NCBI GenBank assembly: GCA_004519485.1
Contig: CP038108.1
Coordinates: forward strand, 682,001 to 746,000
Reading direction: 5' to 3'
Length of the DNA stretch: 64,000 nucleotides
Source: Nannochloropsis oceanica
Lineage: Eukaryota > Sar > Eustigmatophyceae > Eustigmatales > Monodopsidaceae
Numbering within the stretch: the first letter of the stretch is position 1; each line of letters opens with the position of its first letter. Both the position numbers and the translations under genes were made by a program. The notes below the pieces were generated by a model, which made no database searches, had not been told where the DNA came from, and saw nothing but the letters and a program-made list of their open reading frames with translations. Below are positions 10,560 to 58,329 of this stretch, one piece after another.

Positions 10560-10820
10560 CAGGAAATCCTTGCACCAACAGTAAGTCGTTGCATATTCTT
10601 CCCTAATATTGCCGAGATTTTACGGCTTTGCCAGTTTTTTCACAAGCAAAGTCCTCGAATAGTCCATTCAGGGCTAGGAGGAGGGGGGGAAAAGAGGATA
10701 TCTCAGGGGAGGCAACTTCTCCAGTATCTGCATCACCTGCCGCGGTTGAAGAAACCGGGGATCATTGGGATGATCTTCTCCAAGGACCATACTCTCATAC
10801 ACCCGCAGGATGAGGTCCAA
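10560..10820 (-). mobile_element. Decayed 3' end of a Fanzor-type element
   Basis: Read on the minus strand, this stretch matches the last ~90 coding bases and ~170 following bases of the Fanzor locus that ends near 57840. Matching blocks are in the same order. They include CATCCTGCGGGTGTA, then AGTATGGTCC, a shared CAACCGCGGCA, ATCCTCTTTT, GGACTTTGC and GAATATGCAAC. The zinc-ribbon and RuvC-III part upstream is not recognisable here, so this is a truncated, diverged copy with no coding capacity. Seen directly by comparing the two strands; the age cannot be given. Confidence 0.75.
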
Positions 10821-10946
10821 AAGCCCGACTTGAGCCCTGACCTTGCATGCACCCCAGCCGGCACTTGCTGAATGTCAATGTACGGAATGAGCATATGGAT
10901 AATTAAACAAACTTCCTACCGGACAGCGGATTTCCCGAGATTTGGC

Positions 10947-11165
10947 AGTGTGTACATCGAGATTTGGATCGAAGAAAATTGGGACGAAAAGTCAGTCTCG
11001 AACCGCGGCCCAAGGGAGTGTGAATCGAAATTTTGAACCCAAGAAAGTGATGTTGGGACACAAGTCTCGAGTCCCCGCCCAAATGAAAGGGGGAGTGTGT
11101 CGCAATTCGGGCCGAAGGATATGGCTTCGGGACACAAGTCTTAATTCGCGGCCTAAAATTAGGTA
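10947..11165 (+). repeat. Degenerate ~70-77 bp tandem repeat, three units
   Basis: Three successive units begin near 10947, 11017 and 11094, each with an AGTGTG start followed by a CGA(G/A)ATTT-like block. Each then carries GGGACRMAAGTC and a C/G-rich CCGCGGCC- or CCGCCC-like block. Units differ by many substitutions, so the array is old. It may continue weakly on the left to about 10930. No gene is seen around it in this gap. Confidence 0.7.
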
Positions 11166-50672: not shown

Positions 50673-50948
50673 GATGTATCATTATCACTTTTGAGTGTAT
50701 ATCTTCTGGGATTTGGGTCGCGGAATGGGATTTGGGACGAAATTTTCCCGATCATGCCCTACGCAGATAGAGAATGCCTACTAGGATCTTTTTCGCTGAC
50801 ACTTACATTTCATTCCTTCTTTTGAGCCTTCCTTCCTTCCTTCTTCATGGTTGTTATCTCTCCCATCCCCTCATCCCGTTCTTCCCTCGATCCCATCTTT
50901 GTCTTCTTCCTCTCACTTGACTTCTCTCATCCTCCTTTTCATCTTGTT

Positions 50949-51165
50949 CTTCTTCTTCTTCTTCTTCTTTTCTTCTTCTTGCTACTCTTCTTCTTCTTCT
51001 TCTTCTTCTTCTTCTTCTTCTTCTTTATCTTCTTCTTCTTGTTCATCTTCCTAACTCTTCTTCTTCATCATCATTATCATCTTCTTCTTCTTCTTCTTCA
51101 TCCTAACAACTCTTCTTCTTCTTCTTCATAACTCTTCTTCTTCTTCTTCTTCCTCTTGGTCCTCT
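50949..51165 (+). repeat. (TTC)n triplet tract
   Basis: About 200 bp dominated by TTC/CTT triplets, with a few interruptions, on the plus strand (GAA on the other). No gene is credible here; the poly-Ser/Leu/Phe frames are products of the repeat. Confidence 0.9.
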
Positions 51166-51654
51166 TTTCTTCTTACCTTTTTTCCCTATTCTTTATCTTC
51201 TCTTTATTCTTTTCTCCTAAATTTTGCGCTTTTCCTTATTCTCCTCTTTTTATTCTCTTCTTCACACCTTTCTATTTTTATTCGTCCTGTTCTTTTCCTC
51301 CTATCTTTCTCTTGGTCGAATCTTCTTCTCCTTCTTCTATATTGCATTGTCATTCTCCCTTCCTCTTCCTTCTTTGTCGCCCACCAAAATTGATGTAAAT
51401 TTGAACGCGGAAACCTTCCCTGGCAGTCAACGGCTCAGACTTGTCAGGGAAAAACCAAGATAGAAAAAATATGAGGCGACGACCACCTGGGAAGAAATTA
51501 CTTGGGAACGCCAAATGCACAACACGGAGGAAAAAGACACACCAAGTCACGTAGTGAAATATGTAGACCTGATTCTCTTTTATCTTTTGTGCGACAGGTC
51601 AAGTGGCGGGGTGGTGCTTGGGAAAAACACGAAGGTGAAAACCGTAAATATTTT

Positions 51655-51747
51655 GGTATGTGCCCGTTGGAGGGAACGGGCACATACCTTGTGTTGGAAA
51701 TATACCAAAAGGTACACCTGGCAATGATTAATTGCCAGGTAATCATT
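51655..51747. repeat. Two strong hairpins, one with an alternative fold
   Basis: Hairpin 1: arms 51655-51668 and 51675-51688, 14 bp, perfect, loop of 6. Hairpin 2: arms 51716-51725 and 51731-51740 (ACCTGGCAAT and its complement), perfect, loop of 5. A third pairing, AATGATTA (51723-51730) with TAATCATT (51740-51747), overlaps hairpin 2, so the two folds exclude each other. They lie at the left side of the rearranged Fanzor region. Confidence 0.75.
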
Positions 51748-51996
51748 TTTGCATGATAGCAACGATAAAAATGGACGCAAAAGAGGGTATCCTGCTTTTC
51801 AGGCCGCACATTCTCAGGATCCCTTGGGGAGAACGGAAAGGCCAGGCTCGAAGTTGTCGAATCTTTCGGTGATTCCAGCGCGTGCGTGCGTGCATCTGCT
51901 TTTCCGTTGGGTGGTATGTGCGCCCTCGGCAAGGCAGGCGCTACCCGAAAGTCCTAGAAAGGAAAGTCCCGTCGTCTTTAAAGTCAACAACTCACG

Positions 51997-52080
51997 TATA
52001 CGGTCTTGGATGAAAGCCAAGCAGAAACAAAGCATATATATACGGCCATGGATGAAAGCCAAGCAGAAACAAAGCATGGT
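51997..52080 (+). repeat. 42-bp tandem duplication
   Basis: Two nearly identical 42-bp units, each starting TATACGG and containing TGGATGAAAGCCAAGCAG. If translated they repeat MDESQAETKH, but no protein is claimed. Confidence 0.85.
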
Positions 52081-52376
52081 ATGAAATCTGGCCTGTGCGT
52101 CAGATACCGTGAGCACATCCCGCCCCAAATCCGAATAAGTCGCCGAGCTCCCCCCAAGGAAAGTGCATTCGTTGACTCTTCCTCTCTTCTTCTACACAAA
52201 AATAGTTTGACAAGCTTTTTTGTGACATTCTGGGACGAGGGATGCGTACTTGGGCAATGGCTTCAGGCTAGTCCAGGCCAGTTGTTACATGTTGGACAAC
52301 AGCTGCTACACTACCATGATGGTAGATTACCAGGTGCAGTAGAATGCTTTCCCCTCCTCCCAAGAACCGAGGCAAG

Positions 52377-52860
52377 CGTGCGTGGCACGCGGCTGTTTTG
52401 TTTACTGCCGCCGCACCCACCTATCCCCCCCTTCCCTCCCTTCCCTCCTTCCTACCCACCCATTCACCGCGCCACACACCACACACCCACAGCTGATCCA
52501 GCCGCGCGTCAGCCTGGAAGTGAACGACAGTATCGTGGGACAGGAGGACGCCGAGGCAGGCGTGCGTGGCACGCGGCTGTTTTGTTTACTGCCGCCGCAC
52601 CCACCTACCCCCCCCCCCCCTTCCCTTCCCTCCTTCCTACCCACCCATTCACCGCGCCACACACCACACACCCACAGCTGATCCCCCCGCGCGTCAGCCT
52701 GGAGGTGAAAGACAGTATCGTGGCCACACTAAAGGGACAGGAGGGCGCCGAAGCAGGCGTGCGTGGCACGCGGCTGGTTTGTTTACTGCCGCCGCACCCA
52801 CCTACCCCCCCCCCCCTTCCCTTCCCTCCTTCCTACCCACCCATTCACCGCGACTGCAAC
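52377..52860 (+). repeat. Exon-like unit in three tandem copies
   Basis: Units start near 52377, 52561 and 52759 (periods 184 and 198 bp) with CGTGCGTGGCACGCGG. Each has a pyrimidine-rich stretch ending CACACCCACAG, a good splice acceptor. In the second and third spacings this is followed by a conserved coding-like block, (L)IPPRVSLEVKDSIV ... GQEGAEAGVRGTRL. The last copy ends at a GTTTGT donor-like site. This looks like a duplicated 5' exon with its intron borders, just upstream of the Fanzor N-terminal block. Confidence 0.65.
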
Positions 52861-54396
52861 TAACATTCTGCCATTGTGCCAAGGACAACACCACACCCTC
52901 CATTAGAGCCGTCAAACTTCCTCTCTATTTCCCCCCCTTCCCCCCCCCTTCCTCAAAATACAGAGATGTCCCCGTCAACCGAGACTGCTAAAGCCACACG
53001 ACCGGATGTGGCCGCGCGGAAGGAGCTGCAGAAAACACTGGAGATGCAATGTGTAAAGTGTTGTCTGTCAAAGCGACTGGCGCCAGGTTGGCATCCGACA
53101 GTGAAAACTGTCCTGCTAGAAACCCTGGAGCGACAGATTCGGAGCACGTCAGAGATTGTCGTACGAGGATCACTCCGGGTGAATGAGGTGTTGCATTGGT
53201 ACCGCAGTCGTCCAGTTGAGGAACAGGTGGCTCTTTCGAAGCTGGATCAAAGCTTCGTCACCGCCTGCTTCACTCGTGGGCTGGAGGTTCGACCCGGCCG
53301 AGCGTGGAACGAGGGATACCGCGGGGTCATCGAGGAGATGTTTCAGGATAAATTTACCAATTATCCGTTCATCCACCGTAGCCCGGGCGACTACCAATGC
53401 ATCACCGTGGCGGCACAGCTATACATCACAAATATAGCAGCGTCGACATGGACCTCGTTTGTGGGGAGACAACTCGATTACGTGCGATTCTGGCTACGAG
53501 AGCATGGATTGGAGTCCCCGTAGCCAGAATCGCACGTAATCGAGTTGTCTCCCAACAAACGAGGTCCATGTCGACGCTGCTATATTTGTGATGTATAGCT
53601 GTGCCGCCACGGTGATGCATTGGTAGTCGCCCGGGCTACGGTGGATGAACGGATAATTGGTAAATTTATCCTGAAACATCTCCTCGATGACCCCGCGGTA
53701 TCCCTCGTTCCACGCTCGGCCGGGTCGAACCTCCAGCCCACGAGTGAAGCAGGCGGTGACGAAGCTTTGATCCAGCTTCGAAAGAGCCACCTGTTCCTCA
53801 ACTGGACGACTGCGGTACCAATGCAACACCTCATTCACCCGGAGTGATCCTCGTACGACAATCTCTGACGTGCTCCGAATCTGTCGCTCCAGGGTTTCTA
53901 GCAGGACAGTTTTCACTGTCGGATGCCAACCTGGCGCCAGTCGCTTTGACAGACAACACTTTACACATTGCATCTCCAGTGTTTTCTGCAGCTCCTTCCG
54001 CGCGGCCACATCCGGTCGTGTGGCTTTAGCAGTCTCGGTTGACGGGGACATTTCTGTATTTTGAGGAAGGGGGGGGGAAGGGGGGGAAATAGAGAAGAAG
54101 TTTGACGGCTCTAATGGAGGGTGTGGTGTTGTCCTTGGCACAATGGCAGAATGTTAGTTGCAGTCGCGGTGAATGGGTGGGTAGGAAGGAGGGAAGGGAA
54201 GGGGGGGGGGGGGTAGGTGGGTGCGGCGGCAGTAAACAAACCAGCCGCGTGCCACGCACGCCTGCTTCGGCGCCCTCCTGTCCCTTTAGTGTGGCCACGA
54301 TACTGTCTTTCACCTCCAGGCTGACGCGCGGGGGGATCAGCTGTGGGTGTGTGGTGTGTGGCGCGGTGAATGGGTGGGTAGGAAGGAGGGAAGGGA
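52627..54396. repeat. Large fold-back inverted repeat inside the Fanzor locus
   Basis: 53521-54396 is the reverse complement of about 52627-53501, with a short unpaired spacer (about 53502-53520). The arms are ~875 bp and differ at only a few bases. The inverted arm includes the last copy of the exon-like unit and the whole N-terminal Fanzor block. At 54397 the sequence switches back to plus orientation, but re-enters at a point matching ~53188, not at the start of the arm. The small differences between copies argue against one molecule simply read twice, but an assembly error is not excluded. Confidence 0.9.
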
Positions 54397-55392
54397 GGTG
54401 TTGCATTGGTACCGCAGTCGTCCAGTTGAGGAACAGGCGGCTCTTCCGAAGCTGGATCAAAGCTTCGTCACCGCCTGCCTCACTCGTGGGCTGGAGGTTC
54501 GACCCGGCCGAGCGTGGAACGAGGGATACCGCGGGGTCATCGAGGAGATGTTTCAGGATAAATTTACCAATTATCCGTTCATCCACCGTAGCCCGGGCGA
54601 CTACCAATGCATCACCGTGGCGGCACAGCTATACATCACAAATATAGCAGCGTCGACATGGACCTCGTTTGTTGGGAGACAACTCGATTACGTGCGATTC
54701 TGGCTACGAGAGCATGGATTGGAGTCCCCGGACGTTTCAGCAAAGCGTGTCCAATGCCTCGTCAATGGCTGGATAAGATCGCGCACCGACAACCAGGCAG
54801 GCGCTGGAGGAGGAGGAGGAGGAGGAGGAGGTGGAGGAGGAGGAGGAGGAGGAGGACCTCTAAAAGCGACAGCAACAGCAAGAGCGGGAGCAGCAGCCAC
54901 GACAGCAAGCACAGCAGCAACAGCTGCAGCGGCACGAGCAGCAGCAAGAGTGGCAGCAGCCAGAGCAAGAGAAGAGGCACGAGCACGAGCGTCGGCAGGA
55001 GGGAAGAGTGGGAAGGGGGGAGAAGGTGGGGGAGGTGGAGGGGGGGCAGGTGGTGGAGGCCCTGTGGGCAGATCCCGGATGAGGTCCAGGATTTCATCAA
55101 CGAGGAACGGCAGCTTGTTAGGCTGGAGGGTTCCGCCCGTTTGGACGTGAATGAGAAGACTCCAGTGGAAGGGCTCCTCCTCCCGTATCTGTACCACATT
55201 TTGTACCAGTACCACCAAAAGTATCTGGCGGTACTGGCGGTACAAGAAGGGATGGGGGACAACCCTGAGATGCAGGCCGAGCACGGAGGGAATCCTGGCT
55301 ATCGGGCGTTTACCATCGCTCCAATCTGCAGTATCAAGCGCCATTTCATGACGCTCGATACCAGAGCTGCAGTATCAAGCGTCATTTCATGA
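54397..55392 (+). pseudogene. Fanzor middle part with third copy of the N-terminal block
   Basis: 54397-54730 is a direct copy of 53188-53520 with three clear substitutions (for example GTGG to GCGG near 54428). Unlike the first copy it continues into unique sequence: DVSAKRVQCLVNGWIRSRT. A GGA-rich stretch (54795-55060) encodes Gly/Ala/Arg. In another frame follow IPDEVQDFINEERQLVRLEG, LLLPYLYHILYQYHQKYLAV and GYRAFTIAPICSIKRHFMTL, the family block just before the RuvC core. The frame change inside the GGA stretch may be an unrecognised intron. Confidence 0.6.
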
Positions 55393-55445
55393 CGCTTGAT
55401 ACCAGAGCTTGGAGCGATGGTAAACGCCCGATAGCCAGGATTCCC
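55288..55445. repeat. Second fold-back: 37-bp arms around two 31-nt hairpins
   Basis: Arms 55288-55324 and 55409-55445 are exact reverse complements (37 bp). Between them a 41-bp unit occurs twice. Each copy holds a hairpin: 55331-55361 (near perfect) and 55372-55402 (perfect, 14-bp arms GTATCAAGCGTCAT, loop TTC). The left arm is coding in the Fanzor frame (GNPGYRAFTIAP), so the right arm is an inverted copy inserted into the gene. Confidence 0.9.
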
Positions 55446-55923
55446 TGAGGCAACTGGGAGGGATGGGCACCAAAAAATTTGCCGGGATGCGGTTTTGGTG
55501 AAGGAGATGTGGGACGAGACTTTCCGGGTGGGGGGCCTACGAAACCAGCGGGTGTTTCACAATCGGGTTTCCAGGGGTGGTGTCTCGGTGTCGGTCTTCT
55601 TCCACGTGGCGAAGGAGAGACTGGAGAGGGAGAAAGCGGAGAGGGTCAGAGTGGAAAAGGAGGACGAGGAGAAGGAGATGCTGGAACGTCAGCAGGGGCA
55701 GGAAAACCTGCAGCCAGTCAGAGAGCGACGCATTGTCGCGATCGATCCCGGTCGCGTCAACCTGATCACGGCGTTGGACTTGCATACGGGCAAGATCAAG
55801 ACCTTGACGCGTCGTGCGTACTACGAAAAGGGGCGGATCAACGAGTGCAAGAGAAAGTTTAGCTCTTGGGAGGACGCACTCGGTGACATCAATGCCGCCT
55901 TTTCGAGGACCACGATGTCCTAA
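55446..55923 (+). pseudogene. Fanzor segment with RuvC-I motif
   Basis: One open frame reads DAVLVKEMWDETFRVGGL, then VFHNRVSRGGVSVSVFFHVA, which matches the Fanzor block usually written F..x..TDGVSVSVL. It continues with a Glu/Arg-rich helix (KERLEREKAERVRVEKEDEE) and RRIVAIDPGRVNLITALDL. The aspartate codon at 55744-55746 is the first RuvC catalytic acid. LTRRAYYEKGRINECKRKF after it matches the family's tyrosine-rich helix. The frame ends at 55923, shortly before the next block in another frame. Confidence 0.8.
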
Positions 55924-56265
55924 CTTGCGTAGCGCTTACAGGGAGCTGATCGTACAGCATTACCACCGATTGTGGGACGCCAGGTGCGAAAAGAAACGGG
56001 CGCGTGCGCATATGGCGATGTATGCGGGAAAGCAGAAGGTCTTGGATGTTTTCTTTTGCGGGCTTGACGGGGCCAGGGCAGGCGAAGCCCATTATCGCGT
56101 ATGGGGCGGGGATTTTCTTGCACACAGGCAAGGAAGAGGTGAGCGTTCCGGTGAAGAGGGTGCTGCGGGTGCGAAAAGTACTACCGAACAGTGTTCGTAC
56201 CCGAGCACCTGACGACAAAGGTACACCTCGATTGTGGGCAGCGTCTAAACCCAATTGCGAGAAGG
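55924..56265 (+). pseudogene. Fanzor segment with RuvC-II glutamate and first zinc-ribbon half
   Basis: Blocks in shifting frames. SAYRELIVQHYHRLWDARCE and MAMYAGKQKVLDVFF come first, then AKPIIAYGAGIFLHTGKEEV with SVPVKRVLRVRK. Last is YYRTVFVPEHLTTKVHLDCG followed by QRLNPI. The Glu codon at 56203-56205 fits the RuvC-II acid. The expected TS-x2-CxxC pattern reads TTKVHLDC, with His in place of the first zinc Cys. Confidence 0.75.
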
Positions 56266-57490
56266 GCAGAAGGAGAAGGAGGTGAAGGAGGAGAGGGAGG
56301 AGAAGAAGGAGGAGGAGGAGGAGGAGGAGGAGGAGGAGGAGGAGGAGGAAGAAGAGGAGGTGGAGGAGGAGGTGGTGGAGGAGGAGGAGGAGGGGAAGGA
56401 GGAGGAGGAGGAGGAGGGGAAGGAGAAGGGGGAGGAAGAAGAGGGAATAGAACCCGGGCTGCGGAAGCAGCAGCAGCCGCCCGGATGCGGCTGACCATAC
56501 AGATGGCACTTGCTGAAGCACGAGCCCGGGCAGCTGCAGGAGGAGGAGGAGGAGGGGGAAGGGATAGCAGGATGGATACAGGAGGGGATCCTGGAAGGGT
56601 AGGAGTGAGAGGAGTCGGGGCGGCCGAAGCGGCAACAGGAGGAGGAGGAGAGGGAACGAGAGGAATACCTACTTTGCTCTCTTTACCCGGAGAAAAGGCA
56701 ACACGAGCACTAGCAACCATTGCTAGACTTCGCACGGCACTTGCAAGAGGAAGGGAGAAGGGAAAGAGAAAGATAGTGAGGGCGCTCCGACGAGGAGGAA
56801 GAGTGAGAGGGGAAGAAGGAGGAGGACGAGGGGAAGGACGAGGGGAAAGAGGGGCAGCAGGACGAAGGGAAAGGGGGGCAGGAGGAGGAGGGGGAGGAGA
56901 AGGAGGAGGAGAAGGAGGAGGAGGAGGAGGAGGAGGAGAGGAGAAGGAGGAGGAGGAGAAGAGAGGAGGAGGAGGAGAGGAAGAAGAAGAGGAAGAAGAA
57001 AGAAGAGGGAGAAGAAGAGGGAGAAGAAGAGCCCGCAGGAGGAAAGGAAGAGGAGGACTAAGACGGAGTGAGAGGAGAAGAGGAAAAGAAGAAGAAAGAG
57101 AAGAAGAAAGAAAGAAGACGAAAAAGAAGAAGGAAGAAGGAGAGGAAGACCAGAAGAAGAAGAAGAACGAAGACAGAAGAAGAAGAACAAGAAGAAGAGG
57201 AAGAGGAAGAAGAAGAAGAAGAAGAGGAGGAAGAGGAAGAAGAAGAAGGGGGAGGAGGAGGAGGGAGGAGGGAGGACGGGGGAGGAGGAGGGAGACGAGG
57301 AGGGGATGGAAGGGGAAGGGGAGGAGGAGGAGGAGGTGGTGGAAGCAGAGGAGGAGGAGGGGGGGAAGGTGGAGGAGGAGGAGAACGGGGAGGAGGAGGA
57401 AGGGAAAGGGGAGGAGGAGGCAGAGGCGGAGGAGGCGGAGGAGGCGGAGGAGGCGGAGGAGGACGAGGACGAGGCAGAGGAGGAGGTCAT
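56262..57490 (+). repeat. 1.2-kb purine tract, GGA/GAG/GAA-rich
   Basis: Almost pure A/G on the plus strand for about 1.2 kb, broken at 56450-56800 by less biased sequence (arginine/alanine codons). It stays open in more than one frame on both strands, giving long Gly/Glu/Arg or Leu/Pro/Ser strings that are not evidence of genes. It falls exactly between the two halves of the Fanzor zinc ribbon. Confidence 0.9.
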
Positions 57491-57667
57491 GGGTGGGCCA
57501 TCCGAGGACTTTGTTGGTGTGACACCTGTGAACACTTTGTGTCTCGGGACGGCAATGGGGCACGTAACATCCTGCGGGTGTACAGGAGTATGGTCCGTGG
57601 GGAAGCTCGTCCCCATGATCTTCGGTTTGGTCAACCGCGGCAAGATATGCGGACACTCTATGTGTAG
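57490..57667 (+). pseudogene. Fanzor C-terminus: second zinc-ribbon half and RuvC-III
   Basis: HGWAIRGLCWCDTCEHFVSR then DGNGARNILRVYRSMV. The Cys pair is encoded at 57518-57529 and the RuvC-III aspartate at 57548-57550. RD.NGARNI is the most diagnostic signature of TnpB/Fanzor nucleases. The stop is TAG at 57665-57667. Confidence 0.85.
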
Positions 57668-57840
57668 CGTTCCCGCTGACATCCTCTTTTATCCTCCTTC
57701 CCCCCCTCCTGCTGGCCCTGTGTGGGCCGTCCGGGGACTTTGCCTGGTCAAAAAACCTGTCAAAGTCGCTAGTAAAACTCGGACAAGGAATAAGGGGTGA
57801 ATATGCAACAATTTCTTGTTGGAAGGCTCCCCCTCGTATG
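57668..57840 (+). ncRNA. Candidate Fanzor guide-RNA region / element right end
   Basis: The ~170 bp after the Fanzor stop are still similar to the remnant at 10560-10820 (minus strand) through GAATATGCAAC and a TTGTTGG-like block, then similarity fades near 57840. In TnpB/Fanzor systems the guide RNA overlaps the 3' end of the gene and runs to the element's right end. The assignment is by analogy only; no transcript evidence exists here. Confidence 0.35.
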
Positions 57841-58329
57841 CAAGTCCTAGAGGACGCAGGGTGCATGCGATAGTTTTAGAGGGATGTAGGAACGGCAAAA
57901 AGAACTACGCAGAAGCCATCTCCTCCATCGCCGCGTCCCAAAGTTGGGTCAGGTTTCTCAGAGGACCCTAAAAATGACCAAACTCATTCATTTTATTTTT
58001 TTTACTGCACGCGGACCCACATAGTTCCAAACCACCTCATATGAGGTACTGCACGTGGCTGCTTCATGTTTGCCCCACTTGGCATCATTTCTCCGTCCTT
58101 TCCCGCCTTCATTCGATTCAAACGAGCCACTACTGTATACTATGTCACTTGAGTACAGGGAACATCCGGGAACGTAAAACTGGCCCCTTCCTCAGCAGAT
58201 ATATTGATGCTCGCAATACCCCATGCGCTTCTCATTACCACAGTCTCACCCGCATCACAAAATTAGATGCTGCTCCGTTGCGCGTTTGGCATTGACCGAG
58301 CTCGTAGCGCCTTTCCCTGGCGCACGCTA

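Follow-up and report, generated by a model that had tools for sequence, protein, structure and literature searches.

The window analyzed here, a 64,000-nucleotide stretch of a Nannochloropsis oceanica chromosome (G000:C11:682001-746000), almost certainly holds a dead copy of a gene for Fanzor1, one of the RNA-guided DNA-cutting enzymes known from eukaryotes, and the locus as a whole is very probably best explained as a rearranged copy of a transposable element family that bears this gene. A preliminary description made from the raw sequence had read a Fanzor locus there, and that reading, made on a heavily damaged gene, is confirmed: sequence, profile, the alignment of the catalytic residues and the predicted fold of a close relative all point to Fanzor1. 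The "unusual system" it had proposed stands as far as Fanzor1 is concerned but not as a working system: the window copy is a decayed, rearranged pseudogene in a repeat family, and Fanzor1 is already in print for the species. The searches, which covered 29.26 Mb in 32 contigs, further yielded a natural history of this Fanzor family (57 different right ends, a single 3′ end and a four-base target), and the arrangement of copies in the genome hints at the element's mode of spread.

A broken Fanzor1 gene

The aspartates of AIDPGRVNL and SRDGNGARNI and the glutamate of VFVPEHLTT were read on the + strand exactly where they had been placed (Table 1), as were the two flanking blocks VSRGGVSVSVFF (55567-55602) and LTRRAYYEKGRI (55804-55839), both also on the + strand. 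The RuvC triad is in order, but the glutamate is not the canonical RuvC-II residue; it stands in the relocated position, six residues ahead of the zinc ribbon's first ligand. The zinc ribbon is likewise present, although split by ~1.2 kb of low-complexity sequence between its HxxC and CxxC pairs. The gene around the triad is rearranged, as had been reported, and its residues do not share one open frame: the first aspartate and the glutamate lie in the same frame with a stop and frame shifts between them, and the last aspartate lies in another. The extent of 52966-57840 originally given to the locus proved too small, the element running from 50768 to 57904.

At the level of sequence, the homology of the window locus to Fanzor1 relatives is far beyond chance. 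With low-complexity filtering on, tblastn matched the window to its paralogue P0001 at E 1.9e-83 and to the relative P0007 at E 2.4e-52. The + strand of the window carries one each of the D-, E- and zinc-ribbon-RD-type motifs, in order, and the minus strand none; among 200 first-order Markov sequences built from the window, 8 contained the D-type motif and 5 the E-type, and neither the zinc-ribbon-RD type nor the ordered triple appeared in any. The idea that the motifs are chance patterns within low-complexity sequence could draw on PF07282, which stays under its cut-off for the window frames and P0001 (the profile check that had been proposed fails on the window itself, at 12.9 bits vs a cut-off of 26.3), but it is refuted by the Markov control, the tblastn matches and the profile and fold matches described below, and its probability is negligible.

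In Fanzor1, the catalytic glutamate is relocated to six residues ahead of the first zinc ligand (Yoon 2023, PMC10711439), and the zinc ribbon is preceded by [TS][TS]xx and followed by RD (Bao and Jurka 2013, PMC3627910). The window has this glutamate in VPE-HLTTKV-H (56203), where it aligned to E541 of SpuFz1, and has TTKV and SRD at the two flanking positions. Its RuvC-I aspartate stands in a DPG motif (IVAIDPGRVNL, 55744), found also in all of the relatives P0006-P0031 except P0025 (25 of 26). Both zinc ligand pairs have the two-residue spacing, but the strict C4 pattern is absent: the published Fanzor1 motif is all cysteine, whereas the window has HxxC as its first pair, as do 20 of the 25 relatives that extend this far, and 5 have CxxC (P0026 having an extra cysteine just before, P0007 being read from the alignment and P0024, which departs there, being omitted). 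This clade thus deviates from the published motif in the HxxC pair of its zinc ribbon. The zinc-ribbon loop is expanded by ~50 residues in P0001, an expansion absent from all 22 relatives aligned with it. The gene is carried by a transposable element, seen as a repeat family with a fixed 3′ end.

The predicted structure of the relative P0012 has the Fanzor1 fold, which it shares over ~500 residues with the solved RNA-guided endonucleases SpuFz1, GtFz1 and PpFz1 at 14-17% identity in structural alignments. The D, E and D of the family fall on the metal ligands of SpuFz1; the relocated glutamate is common to both, and a zinc ribbon ahead of the last aspartate is common to the family and the solved Fanzor1 proteins. 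The family differs in having DPG where SpuFz1 has DPN, a histidine as first zinc ligand and, in the genome's own copies, a Gly/Glu-rich expansion of the zinc-ribbon loop, the window copy being moreover broken.

The PF07282 cut-off was passed by 1 of 9 relatives in one set and 4 of 5 in another; in Pfam, the window frames and P0001 remained under every cut-off, and P0002 and P0003 had no match at all. NCBIfam gave no match for P0001, P0002 or P0005 and one unrelated weak match for P0003. PHROGs gave none for P0001, and its "transposase" family was weakly matched by P0012 (E 0.0055) and P0038 (E 1.4e-4). Single-sequence searches of the PDB placed no Fanzor among the best 60 of 77 and of 64 matches, the alignments listed being of low complexity, a failure solved by a profile search, which matched Fanzor1 structures. 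Phage records yielded a single match (E 6), and none of 16 stretches fitting a pattern in IMG/VR was confirmed.

Fanzor1 has been tabulated for "Nannochloropsis oceanic" (NOc, 1 entry) in Table 1 of Bao and Jurka (2013, PMC3627910), the only place in the literature consulted where Fanzor was tied to this genus. Matched by type and probable species, that entry is probably the same family as the window element. The CCTA target and CTA-starting repeats described below were not seen in that paper outside its supplementary files, and we do not claim that they are unpublished.

The repeat family and its ends

Comparison of 13 ten-kilobase loci with the window revealed a right end common to part of them and several, differing left contexts. 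A non-autonomous form (L074-L076) has no equivalent of window 52964-56214, most of the Fanzor frame. The right end of the family reads GTAGGA..A(3-6)GAA and, in a DNA search whose query ended in CTA (to which a local match need not extend), was followed by CTA in 28 of 30 loci and by TTA in 2. Pattern searches recovered 24 and 28 exact ends, CTA being included by construction, and 0 matches to the reversed pattern. Among the ends taken from 62 loci, 59 matched the end pattern, the others being dropped, and 57 of these were unique. The 5′ limit fell inside the sequence examined in 40 copies, within 560 bp in 33 of them, some limits being artefacts of low complexity or of the cutting of the comparison library (e.g. 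L035 and L044). The family is characterized by one fixed 3′ end and ragged 5′ ends, the shortest copy (L101) measuring 31 bp.

Direct repeats of 6-15 bp starting with CTA were found in 11 of 40 copies tested (15 nt in L043; 12 in L080 and L094; 10 in L022; 9 in L050, L095 and the window; 8 in L101, L027 and L034; 6 in L041), and L047, dropped by the end pattern, has a 14-nt repeat with one mismatch. Once the L031 row, which has an N beside its limit, was excluded, repeats of at least 6 nt occurred in 10 of 39 copies, where re-paired flanks gave an expectation of 0.60. Of the 11 copies whose repeat is at least 6 nt long, window included, 10 have C ahead of CTA, giving CCTA as the target; the bases after CTA are mixed across the family's targets. 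The telomere repeat CCCTAA includes the word CCTA. No DDE-type terminal inverted repeats were noticed by eye in the end sequences, for which no systematic search was made. At G000:C11:850188-850513, two family 3′ ends point toward one another, with 18 bp between them if both CTA are taken as target.

How the family may have spread

The living element would have encoded a Fanzor1 with a RuvC nuclease (DPG aspartate, relocated glutamate, HxxC/CxxC zinc ribbon and last aspartate). The Fanzor1 relatives so far tested are RNA-guided nucleases with a target-adjacent motif (TAM) beside the target (PMC10432273, PMC11423790), and by analogy with SpuFz1 and GtFz1 we infer RNA-guided cutting by the element's protein: the guide RNA that it binds would be transcribed from the conserved 3′ end onward into the flank, and DNA matching this guide would be cut, with CCTA as the predicted TAM.

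Copying anchored at the 3′ end and directed into CCTA is highly likely, and would have been performed by machinery supplied in trans. We lean, with modest confidence, toward a Helitron-like, one-ended machinery such as that proposed for the Chlamydomonas elements CRe-1/2/3, which carry Fanzor1 in one-ended Helitron2 elements and whose pattern has been attributed to one-ended Helitron transposition, a rolling-circle copying that starts at the 3′ end (PMC3627910). Our family shares with one-ended Helitron2 elements, as described there for CRe-1/2/3, a constant 3′ end, many 5′-truncated copies with internal deletions, and variable direct repeats, together with a fixed target word and extra sequences at some 5′ ends. 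The family target is CCTA, with the repeat starting inside it, whereas in CRe-1/2/3 the repeat starts downstream of TTTT. SPu-1 of Spizellomyces punctatus resembles the family in that Fanzor1 is the sole gene described, but differs in its 33-bp terminal inverted repeats and its putative TA duplications, none of which was noticed here. Helitrons are reported to be more abundant in N. oceanica than any other recognisable element (Vieler et al., PMC3499364).

Several observations weigh against this account. The genome search returned no match to Helitron_like_N (PF14214), its control likewise being without match, and a Pfam scan limited to the frames of the window copy and three paralogues returned no transposase. 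Any base may follow CTA, so the CTRR end of Helitron1 is lacking, and a Helitron1-type end was rejected. The genome has 19 PIF1 places, not separated from host genes; one lies ~1.15 kb from a 5′ region of the family, a proximity that may be due to chance (rough estimate 0.05). A direct repeat of at least 6 nt is missing from 29 of 39 testable copies, in which it is shorter or absent. A copy on C14 has the same 5′ limit as the window element but is preceded there by CTACGGACGG and followed, beyond its 3′ end, by CTACTC; CTACG is in common with the window's left repeat with no matching 3′ repeat, a caveat on the 9-nt repeat of the window, and the reading of C14 as another full-length copy flanked by matching direct repeats was not borne out. 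Finally, the predicted RNA fold of the 3′ end is not significant, since 20 of 200 shuffles folded as well as its last 190 nt (-59.2 kcal/mol, z -1.32).

This 3′ end matched nothing in Rfam at E<=1. Attempts at an omegaRNA structure were set aside, a 40-sequence alignment being too uniform for covariation and a four-lineage alignment suggestive at best. With regard to the 3′ subterminal hairpin and asymmetric terminal inverted repeats of one-ended Helitron2 elements, a TAGTTCT...AGAACTA pairing holds only if the target CTA is counted. Pieces of PIF1-type helicases cluster at G000:C17 631-664 kb and C18 824-837 kb, some with stops and one reaching the contig end.

A helper acting by target-primed reverse transcription ranks second to the favoured Helitron-like one and is rather unlikely. 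Here the same Fanzor1 element would spread through an endonuclease nicking the strand opposite C/CTA, the 3′-OH of ..TAG then acting as primer on CUA in a read-through RNA; as in long interspersed nuclear elements (LINEs), the new copies would be truncated at the 5′ end and flanked by variable direct repeats. The fixed 3′ end, truncation to 31 bp, fixed-start repeats of 6-15 bp and small length changes immediately ahead of the 3′ end would all fit, but the genome offers only two weak, partial matches to RVT_1, both below cut-off (the control matched), and none to RVT_2 (nor did its control match); N. oceanica CCMP1779 was published with 2 LINE fragments and 17 long terminal repeat copies (PMC3499364); and the internal deletion of the non-autonomous form is, in one copy, without splice-site borders, on which ground a spliced-RNA origin of this derivative was rejected. 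Neither RVT_1 place falls on the window element, in whose nine frames Pfam detected no reverse transcriptase at E<=1. It is very improbable that the Fanzor particle itself helps choose CCTA, the motif serving as TAM and the element RNA running into CUA as template; if true, an RNA-guided nuclease element would be spreading target-primed, in the manner of a retrotransposon, in a genome almost without recognisable reverse transcriptases. As N. oceanica is transformable (PMC3499364), movement of the element and any help from the nuclease could be studied there.

Parts of the window element

The features of the window copy are collected in Table 1. Its N-terminal coding part starts in frame +1; tblastn recovered the inverted copy at 53518-54048 on the minus strand and the third copy in frame +2 from ~54395. 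Later coding pieces lie within 55069-56265 (+1, with 55919-56149 in +2) and at 57488-57664 (+2).

Table 1 Features of the Fanzor1 element in the window
Feature	Position	Strand	Basis or remark
Left copy of probable target-site duplication CTACGCAGA	50759..50767	+	Same 9 nt at 57905-57913 beside fixed 3′ end
Whole inserted element, ~7.1 kb	50768..57904	+	Ends from paralogous copies and direct repeat
Inverted duplication	52805..54212	.	Arms 52805-53498 and 53519-54212; 691/694 identical; spacer 20 nt
Fanzor coding sequence, first part, from ATG	52966..53520	+	tblastn P0007 E 2.8e-44, P0012 E 2.1e-44
Third copy of N-terminal coding segment, direct	54395..54708	+	99% to 53185-53484 (direct, 300 nt)
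Small inverted duplication	55287..55446	.	Arms 55287-55361 and 55372-55446; 88% complementary
Open frame with VSRGGVSVSVFF, IVAIDPGRVNL (Asp 55744-55746) and LTRRAYYEKGRI	55435..55923	+	
Relocated catalytic Glu (56203-56205) and first zinc pair HxxC (56224-56235)	56203..56235	+	
G/A-rich low-complexity expansion within zinc-ribbon loop	56265..57490	+	
Second zinc pair CxxC (57518-57529) and last catalytic Asp (57548-57550)	57518..57550	+	
Stop codon of last Fanzor frame	57665..57667	+	
Conserved family 3′ end; candidate omegaRNA region	57668..57904	+	Common to copies
Right copy of probable target-site duplication CTACGCAGA	57905..57913	+	Direct repeat

Further arms of the large inverted duplication, at 96-98%, extend to 54398, and the segment starting at 54395 is also 99% identical to 53519-53832 (inverted, 314 nt). 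Such nearly identical arms around so short a spacer might suggest assembly or read artefacts hiding a simpler true copy. We consider this unlikely, as the forward part restarts at the equivalent of 53185 rather than at the end of the inverted arm, and as inverted duplications with diverged arms exist in two other copies, L011 (90.8% over 930) and L015 (90.7% over 279 and 95.7% over 138). These were placed at oriented positions 3516-7031 of L011, which has two outward 3′ ends, and 4257-6488 of L015.

The zinc-ribbon-loop expansion consists, in the window and its paralogues, of GGA/GAA-type repeats whose length varies among copies. A second relic of the family is present in the window, a 3′ Fanzor fragment at 10575-10812 (-, ~73%), beside which lies a 5′ segment at 10892-11161 (+) that is 97% like the L074 subfamily.
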